Positions 21,120-31,248 of a stretch of DNA of 64,000 nt are shown here, in pieces (the first letter of the stretch is position 1; every line of letters begins with the position of its first letter). Made by a program: the position numbers and the translations under genes. The stretch is from assembly GCF_900168055.1 (NCBI RefSeq), contig NZ_FUYS01000010.1:62001-126000 (forward strand), given 5' to 3'. This DNA comes from Parapedobacter luteus (GTDB lineage: Bacteria > Bacteroidota > Bacteroidia > Sphingobacteriales > Sphingobacteriaceae). The notes beneath the pieces were generated by a model. It worked only from the letters and a program-made list of their open reading frames with translations, did not search any database and was not told the origin of the DNA.

Positions 21120-21343
21120 GGTGAAAAAATTGATTGCTGCAAAAGACGGATCGCTAAACGAAGCGAGCGACCGAGCCAATTGGGACATACATCGTTGTGA
21201 TGTGTTTTTGCTTTAATGTATTGATATACAATATTTTGCGTCGTGTTTTGTTTTTGTTAATAAATTTTAACTGATGTGTTAAGCGGTGATTGGTGGGGAT
21301 GTTGTAATAAAAAAATGTTGAATAAGGGTAAAACAAACTTAAG

Positions 21344-21374
21344 TTGTCTGCATAAGTAAATGGAAGTAACTTTG
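21344..21374 (+). promoter_or_regulatory. Promoter-like sequence overlapping the first ECF sigma start
   Basis: TTG at 21344-21346, 20-base spacer, TAACTTTG at 21367-21374 (exact -7 match). The -7 box lies inside the first codons of the open frame beginning at 21360. If used, the mRNA would begin near 21381 and translation would need a downstream start such as TTG at 21390. Confidence 0.35.
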
Positions 21375-21926
21375 GCCAAAACAGAAACATTGATACATCC
21401 CCGTCATGAGCGTGCCTTTGAAGAGGTATTTAAAGCAAACTTTAAAGCATTGCACGCTTACGCCTATACGGTGCTACAGGATGAAAGTGTAGCTGAAGAA
21501 ATTGTACAGACCGTTTTCTTGAAGCTGTGGGAAAACCGGGAACGGCTAACAATCCACACGTCGCTAAGGGCTTATCTGTATAAATCCGTCTATCACGACA
21601 GCCTGAATCACTTGAAGCATAAAAAGGTTCAACGCAAATATATCGCGGAAGCAATGATGAGCTACAAACAAGAGGAATCCACAGTCGCGGCGGCAGATAA
21701 GGAGCTATATCTGCAATTGCATGAGGCACTCCGGCAGTTGCCTGAAAAATGCCGGACCGTGTTCCAGCTTAGTCGCTTTGAAGAACTGAAATATCAGGAG
21801 ATCGCTGATAGATTAGGGATTTCGCAAAAGACCGTAGAAGCTCACATGGCAAAGGCGCTGCGACTATTGAGGCTCCGATTAGCCGATTTTCTGCCGTTGT
21901 TGATTATCGTATTACCTAATATATGA
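21360..21926 (+). CDS. ECF-type RNA polymerase sigma factor (first locus)
   Basis: A 188-residue extracytoplasmic-function sigma factor of the Bacteroidota family controlled by FecR. Region 2 spans about residues 20-90 (FKANFKALHAYAYTVLQDES, IVQTVFLKLWEN) and region 4 about 120-175 (LPEKCRTVFQLSRFEELKYQ, the helix-turn-helix IADRLGISQKTVEAHMAKAL). The C-terminus is strongly hydrophobic (FLPLLIIVLPNI). FecR follows after four bases, so both are co-expressed and FecR should hold this sigma inactive. The start codon is uncertain because a promoter-like element overlaps it. Confidence 0.93.
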   Translation: MEVTLAKTETLIHPRHERAFEEVFKANFKALHAYAYTVLQDESVAEEIVQTVFLKLWENRERLTIHTSLRAYLYKSVYHDSLNHLKHKKVQRKYIAEAMMSYKQEESTVAAADKELYLQLHEALRQLPEKCRTVFQLSRFEELKYQEIADRLGISQKTVEAHMAKALRLLRLRLADFLPLLIIVLPNI

Positions 21927-21930
21927 TGCT

Positions 21931-22866
21931 ATGGATGATGTATTGCTCACAAAATACGTGCTGAATGAAGCAAATGAGATGGAGGCTGCGAACGTGCGCA
22001 AATGGATTGCCGCTCATCCCGACAACGAAAAGTATTATTTGCAGTTCCGGTTCGTTTGGGAGGCCAGTCAGCGGCTCGCTCCTGAGCACCGTGTAGACGA
22101 AGAAGCCGCTTGGCAACGCTTTTTACAACGGCGTGAACGCGCCGGTGGTGCCTTGCAACGGTCGCGCCAGGGGGTATCTCGCCGTTTGGGCTGGTTGCGG
22201 ATCGCTGCCGGTCTTATCTTGGTATCGATCGTGGCTTACTATTTCCTGTTGTCTGGAGAACGCCAATTGCTGGGTGCTGACTACAGCGCCACCGACGGGC
22301 CGAGCACCGATACATTGACCGACGGCTCTATCATCACATTGGATGTACAGGCATCATTGCGATTTTCAAACGGGCCATTTCAACGTCAGCGGCAGGTGAA
22401 ACTGCATGGAGGCAATGTGTTTTTCAGAGTTGCCCCGGATGGGGATAGACCGTTTGTCATCCAATCCGGAGAAGTAACAGTAACGGTACTTGGCACAGCT
22501 TTCCATGTGAGGCGGAGTGGTGATGAGACAACCGTTGCCGTCGAAAGTGGAAAAGTGAAGGTGGATGGACTCGGCCGTGTGGTAGAACTTACAGCCCGTC
22601 AGCAGGTAACCATCAATACGCTGACACGGCAGTTTGAACAGGACGTGAATAGTGGTTTAATACTGGATCACACACCGCTTTGGCGAATTGCCGAATTATT
22701 GGAGGAGACCCATGGAGTAACTATTGTGATAGCCCGTGATCAACTGCGCGACTTGCCCATGACGACTACGCTACGTGATGGAACGTTGGATGAGCGGTTG
22801 AATATTATTGCCGAAACATTGGGAGTGACCGTCGCACAACAGGGCGACACGATTGTATTCAAATAG
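21931..22866 (+). CDS. FecR-family anti-sigma factor (first locus)
   Basis: Inner-membrane anti-sigma regulator, 311 residues. The cytosolic N-terminus (about 1-85) has the family segment KWIAAHPDNEKYYLQFRFVWEAS; one membrane helix lies near residues 87-106 (IAAGLILVSIVAYYFLL); the periplasmic part holds the FecR domain (DGSIITLDVQASLRF, GNVFFRVAPDGDRPFVIQSG, VTVLGTAFHVRRSG) and a C-terminal DUF4974-type domain (TPLWRIAELLEETHGVTIVI). It should sequester the sigma upstream and receive a signal from the STN domain of the protein encoded downstream. Confidence 0.93.
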   Translation: MDDVLLTKYVLNEANEMEAANVRKWIAAHPDNEKYYLQFRFVWEASQRLAPEHRVDEEAAWQRFLQRRERAGGALQRSRQGVSRRLGWLRIAAGLILVSIVAYYFLLSGERQLLGADYSATDGPSTDTLTDGSIITLDVQASLRFSNGPFQRQRQVKLHGGNVFFRVAPDGDRPFVIQSGEVTVTVLGTAFHVRRSGDETTVAVESGKVKVDGLGRVVELTARQQVTINTLTRQFEQDVNSGLILDHTPLWRIAELLEETHGVTIVIARDQLRDLPMTTTLRDGTLDERLNIIAETLGVTVAQQGDTIVFK

Positions 22867-22885
22867 CTGTTTCTGTCCCGGCATA

Positions 22886-24526
22886 ATGATAAATTACCCG
22901 AACCACCAACCCCTTCTGAAACTACTTTCAATTGGTTGGGCCATCGCCATAGCGTCGGTGTGCCAAGCTCAAAGCTACCTCACACGGGATATCTCCATCA
23001 AAGGAGGGCCTAATCAACGAATCGGAGATCTGTTGTCGGCGGTAAGTCAAGATCAGGGGTTTTACTTTTCCTATAATAGTAACGCTATCGCCGCCGATAG
23101 CCTGGTCAATGTACCGAACTATCGTGGTCCACTGATTAATTTTCTTGGACGTATGCTCGGCCGCAGCTACGAATTTAGGGAGACGCCCGGCTATGTCATT
23201 ATTCGTTACGCACCGGGTACGATGAAATTGGCCTTTCGCGTAGAGAAAGAAAGGGGCAGGCCATTGGTCATCGAGGGGCAAGTCAGCGATGCCAGCAATG
23301 GCATGGGGGTGCCCTTCGCCAGCATCTATGATCGCCAAGCGCTGGTATCTACGTTGTCTGGGCCCACGGGAGATTTTAAATTGAGTATCAAACGGCCGGG
23401 AGAGACTATATGGCTTACGGTGAGCAAGGAAAAGTACCGCGATACCACATTGGCTTTGCTGCCGCCCGTTCAAGTCGGGTCAAAACACAAAGGACGACGG
23501 TATTGGTTGTTCTTGGGTGACGGAAGCGGAGGCGGTTTGGAAGGCTCGGCATTCGGGCGGTTTTTCACCAGTTCGAAACAGCGTATCCAGCGTATCAATT
23601 TAGGGGGATTTTTCGCGTATAGTTCCTATCAAGTTTCATTGACTCCGGGGTTAAGCTCACAAGGACTGTTCAATAGCCAAGTGGTCAATCAAGTGTCGCT
23701 GAATGTCCTTGGTGGTCATACCGCCGGCGTAAATGGTGTTGAAATAGCGGGAGGCTTTAACATCAACCAGCAGCGTACACGCTATTTTCAGGCCGCTGGC
23801 TTGTTTAACCTCGTAGGTAATGACATGGAGGGTGTACAGCTGGCTGGAATTTCTAATATCGTTATGCAGAAGGCCTCCGGTTTGCAGTTGGCTGGCGTGA
23901 GCAGCCACGCCAGCATGACAAAAGGAGTGCAATTATCGGGCGTTTTCAACGTGGCGGAAGATGTAGACGGCATGCAAATAGCTGGGGTAGTGAACACCGG
24001 TGGAAACGTAAAGGGCGTCCAGCTTGCCTTGGTCAATGTGGCTGACAGTAGTGACTACCCCATCGGAATGATTAACTTGGTCAAAAATGGTGAAAAAAGC
24101 GTTACGGCCGCAGTGGACGAATCCAGCATGGCGCAGCTGGCCTTCCGCTCGGGTGGGCGGATATTATATGGTTTGTTGGGGATAGGATATTACCTGAGTG
24201 ATAGTCCCATGAGGTATGCGCTCGAAGCGGGAGTGGGGGCGACCGCGTTGCGGACAGGCGCTTTCATACTGCAGGCGGAAGTGGTCAGCAGGGCCAGTAC
24301 GGATTTCAAAGCGGATATCGAACAACGGCTGTCTTTACGTCTGCTTCCCCGAGTCAGCTTCAACCAACATTGGGGCTTTATAGCGGGCCCTACCATCACA
24401 TATACCTATCGTGATAAGGAAAATGGCTCTTTAAATCCCATAAGTGGATGGAAATGGTACCACAATAAAGACGCTGGCCGGGCGTTACACATCGGGATGA
24501 TGGGTGGGGTATCTTACCGGTGGTAG
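22886..24526 (+). CDS. STN and carboxypeptidase-regulatory domain protein with GVQLAG repeats
   Basis: A 546-residue exported protein (signal peptide to about residue 28, SVCQAQ). Residues about 34-110 form an STN (secretin/TonB N-terminal) domain (RIGDLLSAVSQDQGFYFSYN; GYVIIRYAPG). Residues 125-195 are a carboxypeptidase-regulatory-like domain (VIEGQVSDASNGMGVPFASI). About residues 285-390 contain at least five repeats of 15-16 residues of the form GVQLAGxxNxxxxxx, like the LA_2272-type surface repeat. The C-terminal 130 residues are rich in alternating beta strands ending SYRW. No TonB box, plug or 22-strand barrel is seen. The frame is open from 22853; the ATG at 22886 gives the signal peptide. 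It takes the place normally held by a TonB-dependent transducer after ECF-FecR. Confidence 0.8.
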   Translation: MINYPNHQPLLKLLSIGWAIAIASVCQAQSYLTRDISIKGGPNQRIGDLLSAVSQDQGFYFSYNSNAIAADSLVNVPNYRGPLINFLGRMLGRSYEFRETPGYVIIRYAPGTMKLAFRVEKERGRPLVIEGQVSDASNGMGVPFASIYDRQALVSTLSGPTGDFKLSIKRPGETIWLTVSKEKYRDTTLALLPPVQVGSKHKGRRYWLFLGDGSGGGLEGSAFGRFFTSSKQRIQRINLGGFFAYSSYQVSLTPGLSSQGLFNSQVVNQVSLNVLGGHTAGVNGVEIAGGFNINQQRTRYFQAAGLFNLVGNDMEGVQLAGISNIVMQKASGLQLAGVSSHASMTKGVQLSGVFNVAEDVDGMQIAGVVNTGGNVKGVQLALVNVADSSDYPIGMINLVKNGEKSVTAAVDESSMAQLAFRSGGRILYGLLGIGYYLSDSPMRYALEAGVGATALRTGAFILQAEVVSRASTDFKADIEQRLSLRLLPRVSFNQHWGFIAGPTITYTYRDKENGSLNPISGWKWYHNKDAGRALHIGMMGGVSYRW

Positions 24527-24617
24527 CTTATTGTAATTCCGTCTGTTTCTGCATAAGGGTAAACGTGATTGAGCTTGTCTTTACTTAAATGCCAAATCGT
24601 TTACAATACTTATTAAT

Positions 24618-25514
24618 ATGCAAAGCATGAAAGTAACACGATGGGGAGCCGCCGAGTTCCTGGTGAGAGCGGCGTATATTGTTGCCCTGTTTCCCTTTAT
24701 CTTGCTTAGCCGCCTGCCCCATTGGCTACTTTTGGCCACCGTTGGCCGCTGCTGTTATTTCTTTACATACTCGATAATCCGCTATCGCTACCAGGTGGTG
24801 CTCCAAAACCTGTCTCGCGCATTCCCGGAGAAACCTTACGCAGCGATCGATGCACTGGCAAAGGATTTCTATTGGCATTTCGCGTGTCTTATGGTAGAGA
24901 TTATCCAATCGGTTTCCATCAGTAAACAGCAATTGGCTGGCCGGATACACGTCGCCAATGCCGATTTATTGAAACACTACCATAGCCAAGCAAAGCCCAT
25001 GATTGCCATACTGGGACATTATGGCAACTGGGAAAGCCTTCATATTCTCCCTACTAAACTGTCCTTGCCTGTAAATGCCTTGTATAAACCGTTATCAAAT
25101 AGGCTACTATGCCGTATGGTAAGGCATATCCGATCGCGATTTGGGATGCAGCTCATACCAGCGGAGAAGGCTGCGCGGTTATTGATGAAGGCAGAAGGCG
25201 AAGCTGCGTTGAGCCTGTTTATCGCCGATCAATTTCCGGGATGGCACAAGGGGCATCCCATGGAGTTGCTGCATCAGCCAACGACCTTGTTTGCAGGTGC
25301 GGAAAAACTGGCGAAGGCCATTGATGCGGTCGTTTTTTACGCGGAGCTCCAGCGAGATGGTAGCAACGGGTGGAACGTGCATTTCTCGTTAATCACAGAC
25401 CAGGCCAGGGAAACCATGGACGGTCAGATTACCCGGTGCTTCGGCGAACGCCTGCAAGAAACTATCCGTAGGGCGCCCGCATATTGGCTTTGGTCACACA
25501 AGCGATGGAAGTGA
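24618..25514 (+). CDS. Lipid A acyltransferase family (LpxL/HtrB-like)
   Basis: Acyltransferase of the lysophospholipid/lipid A lauroyl family, 298 residues, anchored by a hydrophobic segment near 15-45. The catalytic HX4E is H134-E139 in LGHYGNWES; SLFIADQFP and PAYWLWSHKRWK near the end are typical of HtrB/LpxL. It would add a secondary acyl chain to lipid A (or a similar lipid) at the inner membrane. The start could also be the ATG three codons on (MKVTRW, 24627). It lies 92 bases after the STN protein and may be a separate unit. Confidence 0.88.
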   Translation: MQSMKVTRWGAAEFLVRAAYIVALFPFILLSRLPHWLLLATVGRCCYFFTYSIIRYRYQVVLQNLSRAFPEKPYAAIDALAKDFYWHFACLMVEIIQSVSISKQQLAGRIHVANADLLKHYHSQAKPMIAILGHYGNWESLHILPTKLSLPVNALYKPLSNRLLCRMVRHIRSRFGMQLIPAEKAARLLMKAEGEAALSLFIADQFPGWHKGHPMELLHQPTTLFAGAEKLAKAIDAVVFYAELQRDGSNGWNVHFSLITDQARETMDGQITRCFGERLQETIRRAPAYWLWSHKRWK

Positions 25515-26018: not shown

Positions 26019-26121
26019 CTCCTTACATGAACCGAGTTTTTACAGCAGCTTAATCTCCAGTTAATATGACACGGATAACTTGGCACCGTCTACAGTGTAC
26101 CAAGTGGACGAGGAGAAGAAT

Positions 26122-26709
26122 ATGCAAACCAGGCGCTATGCGGGTTGTTCGGACGAACAATTGATGGCTTATATACAGCGTGGGCATGAACAGGCTTTCG
26201 AGGTGCTGTATGATCGGTATTGGCACGAACTTTACCGGTTTGCATGGAACGTGTTACGGTCTGAAGCCGATGCGAAAGATGCGGTGCAGGAGGTCTTCGT
26301 CAGTTTTTGGATGCGGCGCGATCAAATCGAAATCACGACAACACTTGCGGCTTACCTGCATAAAGCTGTCCACTATAAAGTACTAAACAGCGCTTCCCGG
26401 CTTTTGGAAGGCAGCCGGACGCATCTACCGCTTTCTTATGAGATGGCTAATGCTTTTGCGATGCAAATCGATCCGATTGCTTTAAAGGAGCTGGAAGACA
26501 CCCTAAGCCGTCAAATGGCGAAATTGCCTCCTGCTATCGAAAATGTACTTCGGATGAGCGTCGAAGAGCAACTAAGTACCGCAGAGATTGCCCGCCACTT
26601 GGGATTATCTGAGCAGACCATCAAAAATCAACTGACGGCGGCACGTAAACGTATGCGCATTTTATGCCGCGATATGGTCTTTTCAGTGCTTTTCTTTATG
26701 TTTTTTTAA
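26122..26709 (+). CDS. ECF-type RNA polymerase sigma factor (second locus)
   Basis: A 195-residue ECF sigma factor. Region 2: SDEQLMAYIQRGHEQAFEVL, YRFAWNVLRSEADAKDAVQE, VFVSFWMRRDQ. Region 4: LPPAIENVLRMSVEEQLSTA with helix-turn-helix IARHLGLSEQTIKNQLTAAR. The C-terminus is hydrophobic (DMVFSVLFFMFF). The frame is open from 26080 via TTG, but the ATG at 26122 is preceded by a GAGGAGAAG ribosome-binding-like stretch and gives the family N-terminus. It is followed by fecR, susC and susD, the usual order of a Bacteroidota nutrient-uptake locus. Confidence 0.93.
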   Translation: MQTRRYAGCSDEQLMAYIQRGHEQAFEVLYDRYWHELYRFAWNVLRSEADAKDAVQEVFVSFWMRRDQIEITTTLAAYLHKAVHYKVLNSASRLLEGSRTHLPLSYEMANAFAMQIDPIALKELEDTLSRQMAKLPPAIENVLRMSVEEQLSTAEIARHLGLSEQTIKNQLTAARKRMRILCRDMVFSVLFFMFF

Positions 26710-26776
26710 TGATTTCTTAATCGGGCCGGGTAGTACAGCACCCCCCTTTTTTGGATAGTATGGCAAAGATGAACAT

Positions 26777-27736
26777 ATGGAGCCATCACTATTCAAAGCA
26801 CTCATTGATCGATACCGAAACGGAACGGCTACCTCGTTCGAAAAAGAGCTCGTTGAAGGCTGGTTGAAAGAACAAGAGCAAAGGCCACTGCCGCTTCATG
26901 AAGTAGACGAGCGACGGATAAAGACGGAGATGCTCTTCGCGATACGTAGACAATTGCGCTCAGCGCGCATGGGGAAATTGCGCAGGTTGGTCCGCGCGGG
27001 GGCTGCAGCGGTATTGATCGCCGGACTTGCGCTATTCGGGTGGTACCTGTGGCCGTCTCAAGAAACGCTCCCTACGTTACGGATCACACAGACCGGTGCT
27101 GGCGAGCGCAAGCAAATCGTGCTGCCTGACCATTCGGTCATCTGGCTTAATGCAAACTCACGCGTGGAATATCCGGAAAATTTTAGCTCGGGCGAACGCA
27201 CCGTGCACTTGGTACAGGGAGAAGCTTTTTTCGAAGTGACGCCCGACACATCCAAGCCTTTTACCGTCAGGACTGATTGGTTTGATACGCGGGTGCTCGG
27301 TACATCTTTCAATGTGCAGGTACATCCAGAGACGGCTGAAGTGGGGGTTGCTGTGGAAACCGGTAAGGTAGAGGTCAGACCTACGGATACGGCTAGCGCG
27401 CAGCAGGTCTTTAGGCTGACGCGTGGACAAGGTGTGTTATACAACAAGGAAGCCAAAGCCATGAGCTATACAACGGGTTCGGAAACGCCGGGAATATGGC
27501 GTTCAGGTGGGCTCAGCTTCGCACAGCGTTCGCTGAAAGACGTGGTGCGCGCCTTGGAAGATAAATATGCCACGACCATTGTGCTTGAGGTAGATGAACG
27601 CCGGGATTACCGCTTCACCGCTACCATTACGCCACAGACCTCATTAGATGAGGTGTTGTCTTCCGTCTGTCTGGTCAATAAACTTATCCGGGTAGATCAA
27701 GACGGGTTGATCGTGTTGCGCGAGCGAGCGTTTTAA
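26777..27736 (+). CDS. FecR-family anti-sigma factor (second locus)
   Basis: A 319-residue anti-sigma regulator. Cytosolic N-terminus, one membrane helix near residues 74-92 (AGAAAVLIAGLALFGWYLW), then a periplasmic FecR domain (LPDHSVIWLNANSRVEYPEN, GEAFFEVTPDTSKPFTVRTD, TRVLGTSFNVQVHPE) and a C-terminal DUF4974-type domain (SLKDVVRALEDKYATTIVLE). It should bind the sigma factor encoded upstream and be released by the STN domain of the SusC encoded next. Confidence 0.95.
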   Translation: MEPSLFKALIDRYRNGTATSFEKELVEGWLKEQEQRPLPLHEVDERRIKTEMLFAIRRQLRSARMGKLRRLVRAGAAAVLIAGLALFGWYLWPSQETLPTLRITQTGAGERKQIVLPDHSVIWLNANSRVEYPENFSSGERTVHLVQGEAFFEVTPDTSKPFTVRTDWFDTRVLGTSFNVQVHPETAEVGVAVETGKVEVRPTDTASAQQVFRLTRGQGVLYNKEAKAMSYTTGSETPGIWRSGGLSFAQRSLKDVVRALEDKYATTIVLEVDERRDYRFTATITPQTSLDEVLSSVCLVNKLIRVDQDGLIVLRERAF

Positions 27737-27768
27737 TCAGGTTTTTTTATGACATAATAATACATTGT

Positions 27769-30700
27769 ATGGAATCAAATCGACAGTACTTAACAAAACG
27801 GGCGTTGATGTACGGAGCTTTTCTATCGCTATGCTGGGGCCCCGTAACTGCTCAGCAATACGCGCATGCCAGCCATGCGCCGGTACAGCACACACGAGTC
27901 TCATTGGAGCAGGCATTGAAAGCGGTTGCTTCGCGCATCAATAAGAAATTGGTGTATGACACTAGGCAGCTGGCGGGTAAGCAGGCACATACAGTAAGCG
28001 CCGGATTGCCTGCAGACCGGTTGTTGGAAGAGATCTTGACCAACACGGGGCTTACTTATCGGGTTGAAGGGGATTTGCTGGTGATTTTTCCGGGAGATGT
28101 GACCGACGGCGCGAGCAGCAACCGCAGCATCCGCCAGCAGCTGACCGTGCGCGGGCACGTCAAATCGGCGGATGGTGAGCCATTGGTCGGTGTTTCGGTC
28201 AGTATCAAAGGTACGACCACCACGGTGTCAACGGGAATCAGCGGCCAATATAGCATCACAGCTCCGGAAGATGCTACCCTGGTGTTTGCGCTTATCGGAT
28301 TCGTAAAGCAGGAGCAAGCGGTCGCGGGCCGTACGCAGGTGGATGTCCTGTTGGAGGAAGACAACCAAGCATTGTCCGAAGTGGTTGTAACTGCACTGGG
28401 TATCAAACGCGAAGAGAAGGCGCTTGGTTATGGCGTATCGGTTGTGAAAGGCGAAGATCTGACGGATGCCATTTCAAACAACTGGTCGGACGCATTGAAA
28501 GGTAAAGTGGCCGGCCTCAACCTCACCCAGACAGGTTCCGGACCATTAAACTCTACCCGCATCAACCTGCGGGGCGACCGTTCGTTGGACATCAATGGCA
28601 ATGAGGCGCTGGTTGTAATAGATGGTATCCCCATGATCAATGGCAAAATCAGTTCTGGCGTAGATCAGGCCTATGGAGCTGGCGCAAGTGGGGTAGACAA
28701 AGATATTCCTATCGACTTTGGCAACGGGCTTTCCGATATCAACCCGGATGATATTGAATCCGTGACCGTGCTGAAAGGAGCCGCTGCATCGGCTCTTTAT
28801 GGCAGCCGTGCTGCCAATGGGGCATTAATTATTACCACCAAAAGCGGCCGTAGGCGTGAGGGAGGTATCGGCATTACTGTCAATTCCAATACCAGTATTC
28901 AGGATGTGCTACGTTGGCCGGACTGGCAGTATGAATACGGACAGGGCAATAACAACCGCAATGCAAACGGCGATCTCTATTACTCCTACCACCTTTCCGA
29001 AGACGGCGCCAATACGGGGTCAACTTCCAGCGCATTTGGTCCGAGATTCGACGGTCAATATTATTTCCAATATGATCCGGAAATAGAAGGGCAGTCCGTG
29101 GACCGACGGCTATGGCGACCATACACAGACAATATCAAAGGTTTTTGGCGCACAGGACTGAACTTTACCAATAGCGTTGCACTGGATGGGGCCACTGATC
29201 GGTTTTCGGCGCGTGCATCACTGACCCATACCAAAAATGAATGGATTATGCCCAATACCGGATTCGAGCGTATCGTGGCATCCCTGAACAGCAGTGCACA
29301 CCTTTCAAAAAATCTTCAGGTCAATGCCAAGATGAGCTATACGGCAAAAAGCAGTGATAACCTGCCCGGTACCGGGTATAACAACCAGTCGATCGGCTAT
29401 TTCATGATATTCCAGAATCCAAATGTCGACTTGGAGTGGTATCGTCCGATTTGGAAACAGGGCAAAGAGCAGTTGGAGCAAATTCATCCGTTTAGCTCCT
29501 ATATCGAAAATCCTTACCTCATTGCCTATGAGATGACTAATGGCCTGAAGAGCAATACCGTGGAGGGCAATTTGCAGGGCATTTATACCTTCGACGACCG
29601 GTGGAGCCTCATGGTGCGTTCGGGCTTGAATATGCGACAGGATAAAAGGGACAACCGTAGACCGTATAACACGGCTAATTTTCCGCAGGGGTACTACAAG
29701 GAGCAAGATGTGTACTTCTTTGAGTCGAACACGGATATGTTGCTCACCTACCAGAACAAACTTACACCCGCCATTGACCTGCGTGCTTCTTTAGGTGCGA
29801 ACGCAATGCGGTACGAGTCAAAAACGAACAATGCGATAGCGCGGGGGCTGCTGCTGCCCGGCATCTACAAATTGTCGAACGCCTTGGAGCAAGCACTGGC
29901 AGATAATGATTTGCAGCGGCGCCGTACCAACAGCGTCTATGGATTCGTCAACTTTTCATACCGTGATTTGGTGTTCTTGGATATAACCGGAAGAAACGAC
30001 TGGTCATCCACGTTGCCCGATGGCAATAACTCATATTTTTATCCTTCGGTAAGCAGCAGCTATATCCTTAGCGATATTTTCTCCCTGCCGGATGCTTTCA
30101 CCTTTGCAAAGGCACGCCTTTCATGGGCCATGGTGGGCAATGACACTTACCCGTATCGTACGGCCAAATACTACAGCAAGACAGATTTCCCTGGCTCTGC
30201 GGAAGCACCATCGGTGCTTCATAATGCTGACCTAAAGCCCGAAATATCCCGCTCATGGGAAGCTGGCGTCAATGTAGCACTGTTTAACAATCGCATCAAT
30301 ACGGATGTAAATGTGTATACCATCACCACTGAAAATCAAGTGCTTTCCGTGCCTTTGGATATTACCACGGGTTATAGCAGTGCGTTCATCAATGCCGGTG
30401 AAATCCGTAATCGCGGCATTGAGGTAATGTTGAGCGGAAGTCCTGTGAAAAACGACAACTTTTCGTGGACGGCCACGGCGACTTGGTCTACCAATAACAA
30501 CAGGATTCTGTCATTAAGCGAGGATGTGGAAGGCGAGGAGCAAATTATCGCTACGAGCGGTACAGCTACCTTGCTGGCCACCGTAGGCGGTAGCATCGGC
30601 GACATATGGGGATTTGGGCTGGTGCGCAATCCTGAGGGGCAAGTGGTGTTTAATGGTGAAACAGGATTGGCCCTCCGGCCCAATGATATTAGTAAAATCG

Positions 30701-31248
30701 GTAACGCATATGCCGATTGGAGGGCAGGCTTGGTCAATGAGTTTCAATACAAAAACTGGCGATTCAGCGCAACCATCGACGGTCAATATGGTGGTTTACT
30801 GTATTCGCAGAGCCATCATAAGATGACCGAACAAGGCAAACTTCGCCATACGTTGCTGGGTCGTGAAACCATGACGGTCATCGGCGAAGGTGTGGTCTTG
30901 AACGACGACGGCAGCTATTCGCCCAATACAACGCCGGTGCCGATCCAGACGTGGTACGGTGATTACTACCGGCGGGCGAATATTGAGACGAATAGCTTTG
31001 ACGCTTCATACCTGAAACTGCGGGAAGTCCGGTTGGAATACAACCTGCCGGTTTCAGTGGTGTCACGTTGGCGCCTCGCGGGTGCCAGCATTGCCGTGTA
31101 TGGCCGTGATCTGGCGATGATTTCGGACTTTCCGATTTTTGACCCCGAGACGGCGAGTCTTAATGGCGCCACTATCGTGCCGGGGGTAGAAATGGGGCAA
31201 TTGCCCACGCCAAGAACATGGGGCGTAAACCTGAGGTTTCAATTTTAA
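27769..31248 (+). CDS. SusC/RagA-family TonB-linked outer-membrane receptor with STN domain
   Basis: A 1159-residue TonB-dependent receptor/transducer. Signal peptide to about residue 28 (GPVTAQQ); STN domain about 40-110 (VSLEQALKAVASRINKKLVY; LTNTGLTYRVEGDLLVIFPG); carboxypeptidase-regulatory domain about 125-205 (LTVRGHVKSADGEPLVGVSV); TonB-box-like VVVTALGIKREEKALGY; plug about 220-350 including VLKGAAASALYGSRAANGAL; then the 22-strand barrel ending in a C-terminal Phe (GVNLRFQF), as required for outer-membrane insertion. It imports a ligand captured by the SusD partner and signals to FecR. The ligand is not identifiable: no glycoside hydrolase or protease adjoins. Confidence 0.96.
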   Translation: MESNRQYLTKRALMYGAFLSLCWGPVTAQQYAHASHAPVQHTRVSLEQALKAVASRINKKLVYDTRQLAGKQAHTVSAGLPADRLLEEILTNTGLTYRVEGDLLVIFPGDVTDGASSNRSIRQQLTVRGHVKSADGEPLVGVSVSIKGTTTTVSTGISGQYSITAPEDATLVFALIGFVKQEQAVAGRTQVDVLLEEDNQALSEVVVTALGIKREEKALGYGVSVVKGEDLTDAISNNWSDALKGKVAGLNLTQTGSGPLNSTRINLRGDRSLDINGNEALVVIDGIPMINGKISSGVDQAYGAGASGVDKDIPIDFGNGLSDINPDDIESVTVLKGAAASALYGSRAANGALIITTKSGRRREGGIGITVNSNTSIQDVLRWPDWQYEYGQGNNNRNANGDLYYSYHLSEDGANTGSTSSAFGPRFDGQYYFQYDPEIEGQSVDRRLWRPYTDNIKGFWRTGLNFTNSVALDGATDRFSARASLTHTKNEWIMPNTGFERIVASLNSSAHLSKNLQVNAKMSYTAKSSDNLPGTGYNNQSIGYFMIFQNPNVDLEWYRPIWKQGKEQLEQIHPFSSYIENPYLIAYEMTNGLKSNTVEGNLQGIYTFDDRWSLMVRSGLNMRQDKRDNRRPYNTANFPQGYYKEQDVYFFESNTDMLLTYQNKLTPAIDLRASLGANAMRYESKTNNAIARGLLLPGIYKLSNALEQALADNDLQRRRTNSVYGFVNFSYRDLVFLDITGRNDWSSTLPDGNNSYFYPSVSSSYILSDIFSLPDAFTFAKARLSWAMVGNDTYPYRTAKYYSKTDFPGSAEAPSVLHNADLKPEISRSWEAGVNVALFNNRINTDVNVYTITTENQVLSVPLDITTGYSSAFINAGEIRNRGIEVMLSGSPVKNDNFSWTATATWSTNNNRILSLSEDVEGEEQIIATSGTATLLATVGGSIGDIWGFGLVRNPEGQVVFNGETGLALRPNDISKIGNAYADWRAGLVNEFQYKNWRFSATIDGQYGGLLYSQSHHKMTEQGKLRHTLLGRETMTVIGEGVVLNDDGSYSPNTTPVPIQTWYGDYYRRANIETNSFDASYLKLREVRLEYNLPVSVVSRWRLAGASIAVYGRDLAMISDFPIFDPETASLNGATIVPGVEMGQLPTPRTWGVNLRFQF

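Follow-up and report, generated by a model that had tools for sequence, protein, structure and literature searches.

In the 64,000-nucleotide stretch of the Parapedobacter luteus genome analyzed here (the window; NZ_FUYS01000010.1, positions 62,001 to 126,000), three tightly packed genes, all on the plus strand (21360-24526), encode an extracytoplasmic function (ECF) sigma factor, a FecR anti-sigma factor, and an exported protein of 546 amino acids (aa). We consider it probable that they form a cell-surface-signalling module in which the third protein, anchored in the outer membrane and non-transporting, replaces the TonB-dependent receptor and controls a small outer-membrane regulon. Cell-surface signalling has mostly been described as part of TonB-dependent uptake. 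The proposal is carried by the linkage of the three genes across genomes, the domain make-up of the third protein, the beta-helix and barrel in its model, and the enrichment of a promoter motif.

The trio had been named in an earlier note on this DNA, made from the letters alone, and profile searches confirmed it. The sigma factor (21360-21926) falls in the Bacteroidota FecI-like ECF group (TIGR02985, E 1.9e-49, 168 bits for a cut-off of 126.4) and carries Pfam sigma-70 regions 2 and 4. The FecR protein (21931-22866) matched Pfam FecR (E 7.4e-19) and FecR_C (E 9.8e-10), both over the cut-off, and its strongest hydrophobic segment by hydropathy lies at residues 89-107, as predicted for a membrane-anchored anti-sigma factor with an STN-like C-terminal domain. 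The third gene (22886-24526, ATG at 22886) encodes the proposed sensor.

By homology only, this partner protein would bear an STN signalling domain at residues 35-108 (22988-23209). The AlphaFold2 model, built with 60 related sequences, has an STN-like order of strands and helices there; Pfam STN was found at E 0.01 in 9 of the 60 aligned long forms, as we call the STN-bearing relatives; and the part of the family profile that covers STN and the carboxypeptidase-regulatory domain (CPD), up to about residue 178, matched the N-termini of TonB-receptor-sized open frames with E values down to 6e-23. The CPD, which is transthyretin-like (residues 111-195, 23216-23470), was found as CarbopepD_reg_2 at E 0.01 in 59/60 long forms. 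A profile of this region matched SusC homologues in the PDB (E 1.4e-6), and the modelled domain resembles small beta-sandwiches, namely the carboxypeptidase D TTL domain 5aq0 (Z 8.6, root-mean-square deviation (rmsd) 2.1 over 68 residues) and the macroglobulin domain 4zjg (Z 10.6, by VIA-align). The earlier note had named both domains, and relatives, profile and model bear it out; in the window protein itself, Pfam returned only a weak CarbopepD_reg_2 match (E 6e-4), under its cut-off. Pfam gave no match to a plug or a TonB receptor barrel in the window protein or in any of the 60 aligned long forms.

The CPD is followed by 15-residue GVQLAGxxN repeats (residues 242-399, 23609-24082). The window protein has four strict cores at spacings of 16, 15, and 15, and the "five or more" of the earlier note is reached with degenerate copies recognized by eye. 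The 60 long forms have 3-9 strict cores per protein, compared to 0-2 in the same sequences reversed. Two repeat families are related: the LA_2272 surface repeat family (NF047436) matched 19 of the 60 long forms at E 0.01 (best relative E 3.6e-13), and the VC2662 family (NF047437) matched 14, the window protein scoring under both cut-offs (14.1 bits for 25 and 17.8 bits for 140, respectively).

In the model, residues 242-429 match the parallel beta-helix of the tailspike 6f7k (VIA-align Z 9.0, rmsd 2.8 over 156 residues). Left-handed beta-helices (LpxD, GlmU) gave Z 12.7-13.5 and were not adopted, their rmsd being 9.7-10; the tailspike helix fits both this model and that of an STN-less relative better by rmsd (2.8-3.7, Z 9.0-9.6), and no handedness was assigned. 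The C-terminal 145 residues (402-546, 24089-24523) model as a small eight-stranded outer-membrane barrel. The nine best barrel matches have VIA Z scores of 13.1-15.4 and rmsd 2.1-3.0 over 113-133 residues (6x9z, Z 15.4; OprF 4rlc, Z 15.3; OmpA 1qjp, Z 13.4) at 5-16% sequence identity, and we claim no membership of the OmpA, OprF, or NspA families. The STN-less relative (356 aa, locus L137) models with the same beta-helix and barrel, and an aromatic residue lies within the final three positions of 48/60 long and 19/26 short (STN-less) proteins. The "short beta-rich end, with no plug or large barrel" of the earlier note was thus right in lacking a plug and a TonB-dependent barrel, the end itself being modelled as a barrel of its own.

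A barrel with an even number of strands has its two termini on the periplasmic side, so that the STN, CPD, and repeats, all before residue 402, are most simply placed there. Most likely, surface exposure would then be limited to the barrel loops, of which the last extracellular one (~510-531 in this predicted topology) is the longest and the others are short. The earlier note had spoken of a non-transporting surface protein; the first half of that description agrees with the lack of a TonB receptor barrel, and the second would need amending, as the STN and the repeats are probably periplasmic.

The linkage of the three genes was then evaluated in relatives. A single-protein query of the genome contigs gave none, and a profile scan with an eight-member family alignment gave 176, of which 80 loci were kept. 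The six closest proteins among them are from Parapedobacter (53-64% identity). An intact long form is present in 78/80 kept loci and an intact long or short form in 79/80; locus L137 has a short paralogue and no long form, and in L122 the long gene is broken and lies beside convergent FecR and sigma genes. Sigma and FecR genes adjoin the long form in 77/78 loci, 60 of them colinear (sigma-FecR-long) and 17, from Mucilaginibacter and Pedobacter, with the long gene convergent to FecR-sigma. Two further sets of relatives gave 17/17 and 13/15; seven of these 17 loci coincide with kept ones, and with each place counted once, 100 of 103 intact STN-bearing long forms have adjoining sigma and FecR genes, colinear or convergent. 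The co-occurrence in relatives that the earlier note had proposed to check was therefore found across genera and families, and neither of the two outcomes named there as refuting its reading was observed. As judged from sequence, the module is present in several genera and Bacteroidota families; in a class-wide sample, 53/295 genomes match the family profile at E 1e-60, some of them with STN-less proteins.

Relatives that lack the STN and are not located near a long form served as controls, and a FecR gene was found near 0/33 of them. These comprise 25 solenoid-barrel loci from other genomes of the phylum (5 + 20) and eight unlinked paralogues from module-bearing genomes (L051-L058); one locus (L194) has just 405 bases on one side. 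A sigma gene was seen near L209 only, ~2 kb away on the opposite strand. Loci with weak, partial, or single matches (L049, L050, L059, L060) were left out, as was L137, which is the place of L051; the former four showed no FecR and no adjacent sigma gene. The STN-less solenoid-barrel protein (~350-530 aa) is itself widespread, mostly in one other bacterial family, and has no FecR neighbors there (L187-L190, L193-L211).

A promoter motif, AGGGTAA-N12-KTGTC, was derived from the aligned upstream regions of 12 Mucilaginibacter loci, where AGGGTAA-N12-GTGTC lies 5′ of the long, small-barrel, and short genes (at ≤1 mismatch, 12/12 convergent long, 5/10 small-barrel, and 9/11 short genes). It was then tested in the 68 kept loci outside the discovery set (region -160 to +60, ≤1 mismatch). 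The motif was present before 36/71 sigma genes, a low estimate (seven loci add a second sigma gene to the class), as well as 19/36 outer-membrane protein (OMP) genes, 10/18 short paralogues, and 9/17 acyltransferase genes, compared to 0/81 FecR genes, 0/60 colinear (operon-internal) long genes, 0/8 sigma genes of other systems, and 7/455 other genes. Fisher tests gave p ≤ 8e-11 for each of the four classes, values that are optimistic given the non-independence of related genomes. Across 122 partly overlapping loci (1.69 Mb), 63 exact matches were found, compared to one for the reversed pattern: 21 precede sigma genes, 13 short paralogues, seven OMP genes, seven long genes, three acyltransferase genes, and five other genes, and seven have no start within 300 bases.

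In the window's genome (4.83 Mb), there are two exact matches, both of the form AGGGTAA-N12-TTGTC and both predicted promoters, and none for the reversed pattern. The first (21325-21348, plus strand) precedes the sigma operon and the second (24556-24579, plus strand) precedes a gene of the lipid A acyltransferase family (24618-25514, plus strand; PF03279, E 4e-30), which we propose as a regulon member. The -10 element of the predicted sigma promoter stops 11 bases 5′ of the annotated sigma ATG (21325-21360), which would make the sigma mRNA nearly leaderless or place the real start further downstream. A second triad, of the canonical kind, lies at 26080-31248: an ECF sigma gene, a FecR gene, and a gene for a SusC-type receptor in which STN, CPD, and plug are all present. 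The motif did not occur there at ≤1 mismatch. Elsewhere in this genome, sites with one mismatch are at the control level (28 new, 33 reversed); one of them lies 22 bases 5′ of an unlinked short paralogue. Among 16 inspected stretches of this kind with an intact TGTC, this site and one before a PepSY-like lipoprotein gene (L303:2702-3133) alone look real; the counterpart of the latter in P. indicus has an exact motif (L292).

The recurrent neighbors give the predicted regulon its content. Besides the sigma, FecR, and solenoid-family clusters, the only clusters found in ≥17/80 loci are a small OMP_b-brl_2 barrel (48/80 by profile, 46/80 by clustering) and the lipid A acyltransferase (19/80 by profile, 17/80 by clustering); the solenoid-family cluster further takes in 27 proteins that are STN-only or unlabelled, some of them receptors, and clusters in ≤13 loci were partly identified. 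In 28/78 long-form loci, there is also an intact paralogue that lacks the STN. In the window, the acyltransferase gene is present and no small OMP_b-brl_2 gene lies next to the trio, the closest homologue elsewhere in the genome having 30% identity. The genome has three genes of the acyltransferase family, and the module copy is not the top-scoring one.

A longer pattern searched in 30 genomes gave 40 matches, compared to seven for the reversed control, and none in 11/30. Twenty-three of the 40 are in module loci, two precede unlinked short paralogues, and 15 are elsewhere, of which nine precede an open frame and six have no sensible downstream gene, so that several are probably due to chance. 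An exact motif also precedes STN-less paralogues unlinked to the module in three further species and, in P. tibetensis, an unlinked gene for an OMP_b-brl_2 barrel (L294) that is missing from the module locus of this species. Further exact motifs precede a fatty-acid desaturase gene (L122), fatty-acid hydroxylase genes in L088 and L297, and genes of the serine beta-lactamase family in L296 and L299; the unlinked OMP_b-brl_2, desaturase, hydroxylase, receptor-like, lipoprotein, and beta-lactamase-family targets each come from a single genome. A second sigma gene with an exact motif was seen in a Pedobacter genome with a broken long gene (L291:7787-8380), and ~3 kb from it is an OMP_b-brl-like gene that also has the motif. 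A CPD-bearing gene of 776-801 aa lies near the module in four loci (L071:2318-4723, L081:3492-5834, L089:8094-10457, L123:1919-4249), with the motif at 0-1 mismatch; it is receptor-like by plug or barrel matches in L071, L081, and L089.

Taken as a mechanism, the third protein would be exported and its eight-stranded barrel inserted in the outer membrane, with the beta-helix rod, CPD, and STN hanging into the periplasm. There, the STN would meet the STN-like C-terminal domain of FecR and so control the release of the sigma factor. In the Fox system, as far as the available portion of PMC11637429 describes it, the receptor's STN is bound to the anti-sigma factor as long as no signal is present, shielding it from proteolysis. 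By analogy, the STN of the third protein might hold FecR, and a change in the barrel or its surroundings might let the sigma factor go. We infer that the freed sigma factor would transcribe a small regulon from the AGGGTAA-N12-KTGTC promoters: its own sigma-FecR-sensor operon, the accessory lipid A acyltransferase, the small OMP_b-brl_2 barrel, the solenoid-barrel paralogues that lack the STN, and, in single species, genes for fatty-acid desaturases or hydroxylases. As the sigma operon in the window carries the motif, positive feedback would follow. The earlier note had called the third gene the output gene; it does lie in a motif-preceded operon, and the predicted output also takes in the acyltransferase, the small barrels, and the STN-less paralogues.

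Several results weigh against this proposal. The model of the third protein has a mean predicted local distance difference test score (pLDDT) of 85.4 and a predicted template modelling score (pTM) of 0.55, the latter meaning that the arrangement of the domains is uncertain. Foldseek gave nothing at E 0.001 for this model or that of the STN-less paralogue, and the barrel call therefore rests on the models and VIA. The Pfam STN scan of the window's third protein gave no score, and no STN chain was among the 50 VIA matches listed, in which the regions outside residues 388-546 were barely probed. In three loci, the linkage is incomplete: the long form of L104 is at a contig edge with FecR alone visible, a 723-aa long form in L185 (6108-9494) adjoins FecR with no sigma gene found, and an intact STN-solenoid-barrel gene in L171 (6112-7875) has neither sigma nor FecR in its 14 kb. 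The neighbors of the latter include a Na/Ca exchanger gene and apparent pentose-phosphate genes, named by eye. The 25 STN-less loci come mostly from one other bacterial family, making phylogeny a partial confounder of that control.

The motif has its own exceptions. In the discovery loci, it precedes 0/12 sigma genes; in most of these loci, the sigma gene is directly downstream of the small-barrel gene. Outside the discovery set, it precedes 0/5 convergent long genes. No module gene has it at ≤1 mismatch in 15/78 loci, which include both Olivibacter and most Chitinophagaceae. Over the whole of 17 module-bearing genomes, the 12-base pattern occurs 33 times, compared to 31 for its reverse, which means that the signal is positional, and positional tests were used instead. 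The acyltransferase genes are confined to 19/80 loci. Finally, exact motifs precede three TonB-receptor-like genes (L071, L081, L290), which would suit a role in uptake.

What the module would respond to can be weighed on the same evidence. By and large, the predicted targets concern the composition of the outer membrane, and it is most likely this membrane, and not nutrient uptake, that the system monitors and adjusts. Tentatively, and well short of a favored conclusion, it might be a dedicated sensor of outer-membrane state in Bacteroidota, the barrel-anchored STN protein reading lipid packing, barrel assembly, or the spacing to the inner membrane, and FecR and the sigma factor adjusting lipid A acylation, fatty-acid modification, and small-barrel content. 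If true, this would be an envelope-stress-like sigma pathway assembled from cell-surface-signalling parts.

It is unlikely that the barrel instead recognizes one particular extracellular ligand, in the manner of FecA, and passes on the signal without itself taking the ligand up, the regulated envelope genes, receptors included, being the response. STN/FecR/ECF systems are normally ligand-driven from outside (according to the portion of PMC11637429 available), the last extracellular loop is the longest, and the motif, with 0-1 mismatch, is found at receptor-like genes (L089 and L123 in addition to the three above); however, the remaining modelled loops are short, and only the small barrel and the acyltransferase are frequent as extra neighbors. 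We regard as quite improbable that the third protein is just a target of the sigma factor with a structural or adhesive role in the outer membrane, with a relic STN and an input to FecR by another route. The STN is degenerate by Pfam, and the L171 copy exists apart from sigma and FecR, yet the STN-bearing forms are linked to them almost throughout, unlike the unlinked STN-less relatives, and even a convergent long gene still adjoins FecR-sigma. A decayed TonB-dependent receptor, to which the STN and CPD common to SusC-type receptors might point, is extremely unlikely and was dropped, as the models of the window protein and the STN-less paralogue contradict it: the C-terminal half is a solenoid and an eight-stranded barrel with an STN-less family of its own, and nearly all kept loci have an intact long or short form.

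The suggestion of the earlier note that this is a signalling branch freed from uptake is therefore partly supported. The module seems to separate in nature what, in the Fec system, is hard to split experimentally (signalling from transport, according to the portion of a review, PMC9249621, that was available), and its sharp promoter motif makes the sigma factor, regulon, and input testable. How Bacteroidota sense their outer membrane is, to our knowledge, an open question, and the acyltransferase and fatty-acid genes, if true targets, would give a handle on it. A search of titles and abstracts, with most subscription journals outside its reach, returned no description of the module, nor any partner with a small outer-membrane barrel of its own, a conserved regulon motif, and a comparable spread.

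Signalling that dispenses with a TonB receptor has a partial precedent in VreA of Pseudomonas aeruginosa (the PUMA3 system, VreA-VreI-VreR) and so is not entirely new. According to the portion of PMC2729926 available, VreA has an STN and a TolA-like domain, lacks a barrel, and is mostly soluble; induction of vreA by VreI was not seen there. In both systems, a sigma/anti-sigma couple goes together with a small STN-bearing protein other than a TonB receptor, and the regulon, which for the present module is a predicted one, lies beyond iron uptake, but the partner described here would have an outer-membrane barrel, a CPD, and a beta-helix of its own. Compared to the FecA/FecR/FecI type (E. coli Fec, P. 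aeruginosa FoxA/FoxR/FoxI, and the Bacteroidota SusC-STN triads), the module shares an adjacent ECF sigma factor and FecR with an STN-like C-terminal domain, an STN on the outer-membrane partner, and a partner gene in a motif-preceded operon. It differs in having an eight-stranded barrel behind a beta-helix in place of the plug and 22-strand receptor barrel and in that most predicted targets are envelope genes. The GVQLAGxxN repeats are common to the third protein and the LA_2272 and VC2662 families, whereas the STN, CPD, and sigma-FecR linkage are additional here. With the OmpA, OprF, and NspA barrels, the third protein shares the modelled fold of residues 402-546 but little of the sequence.

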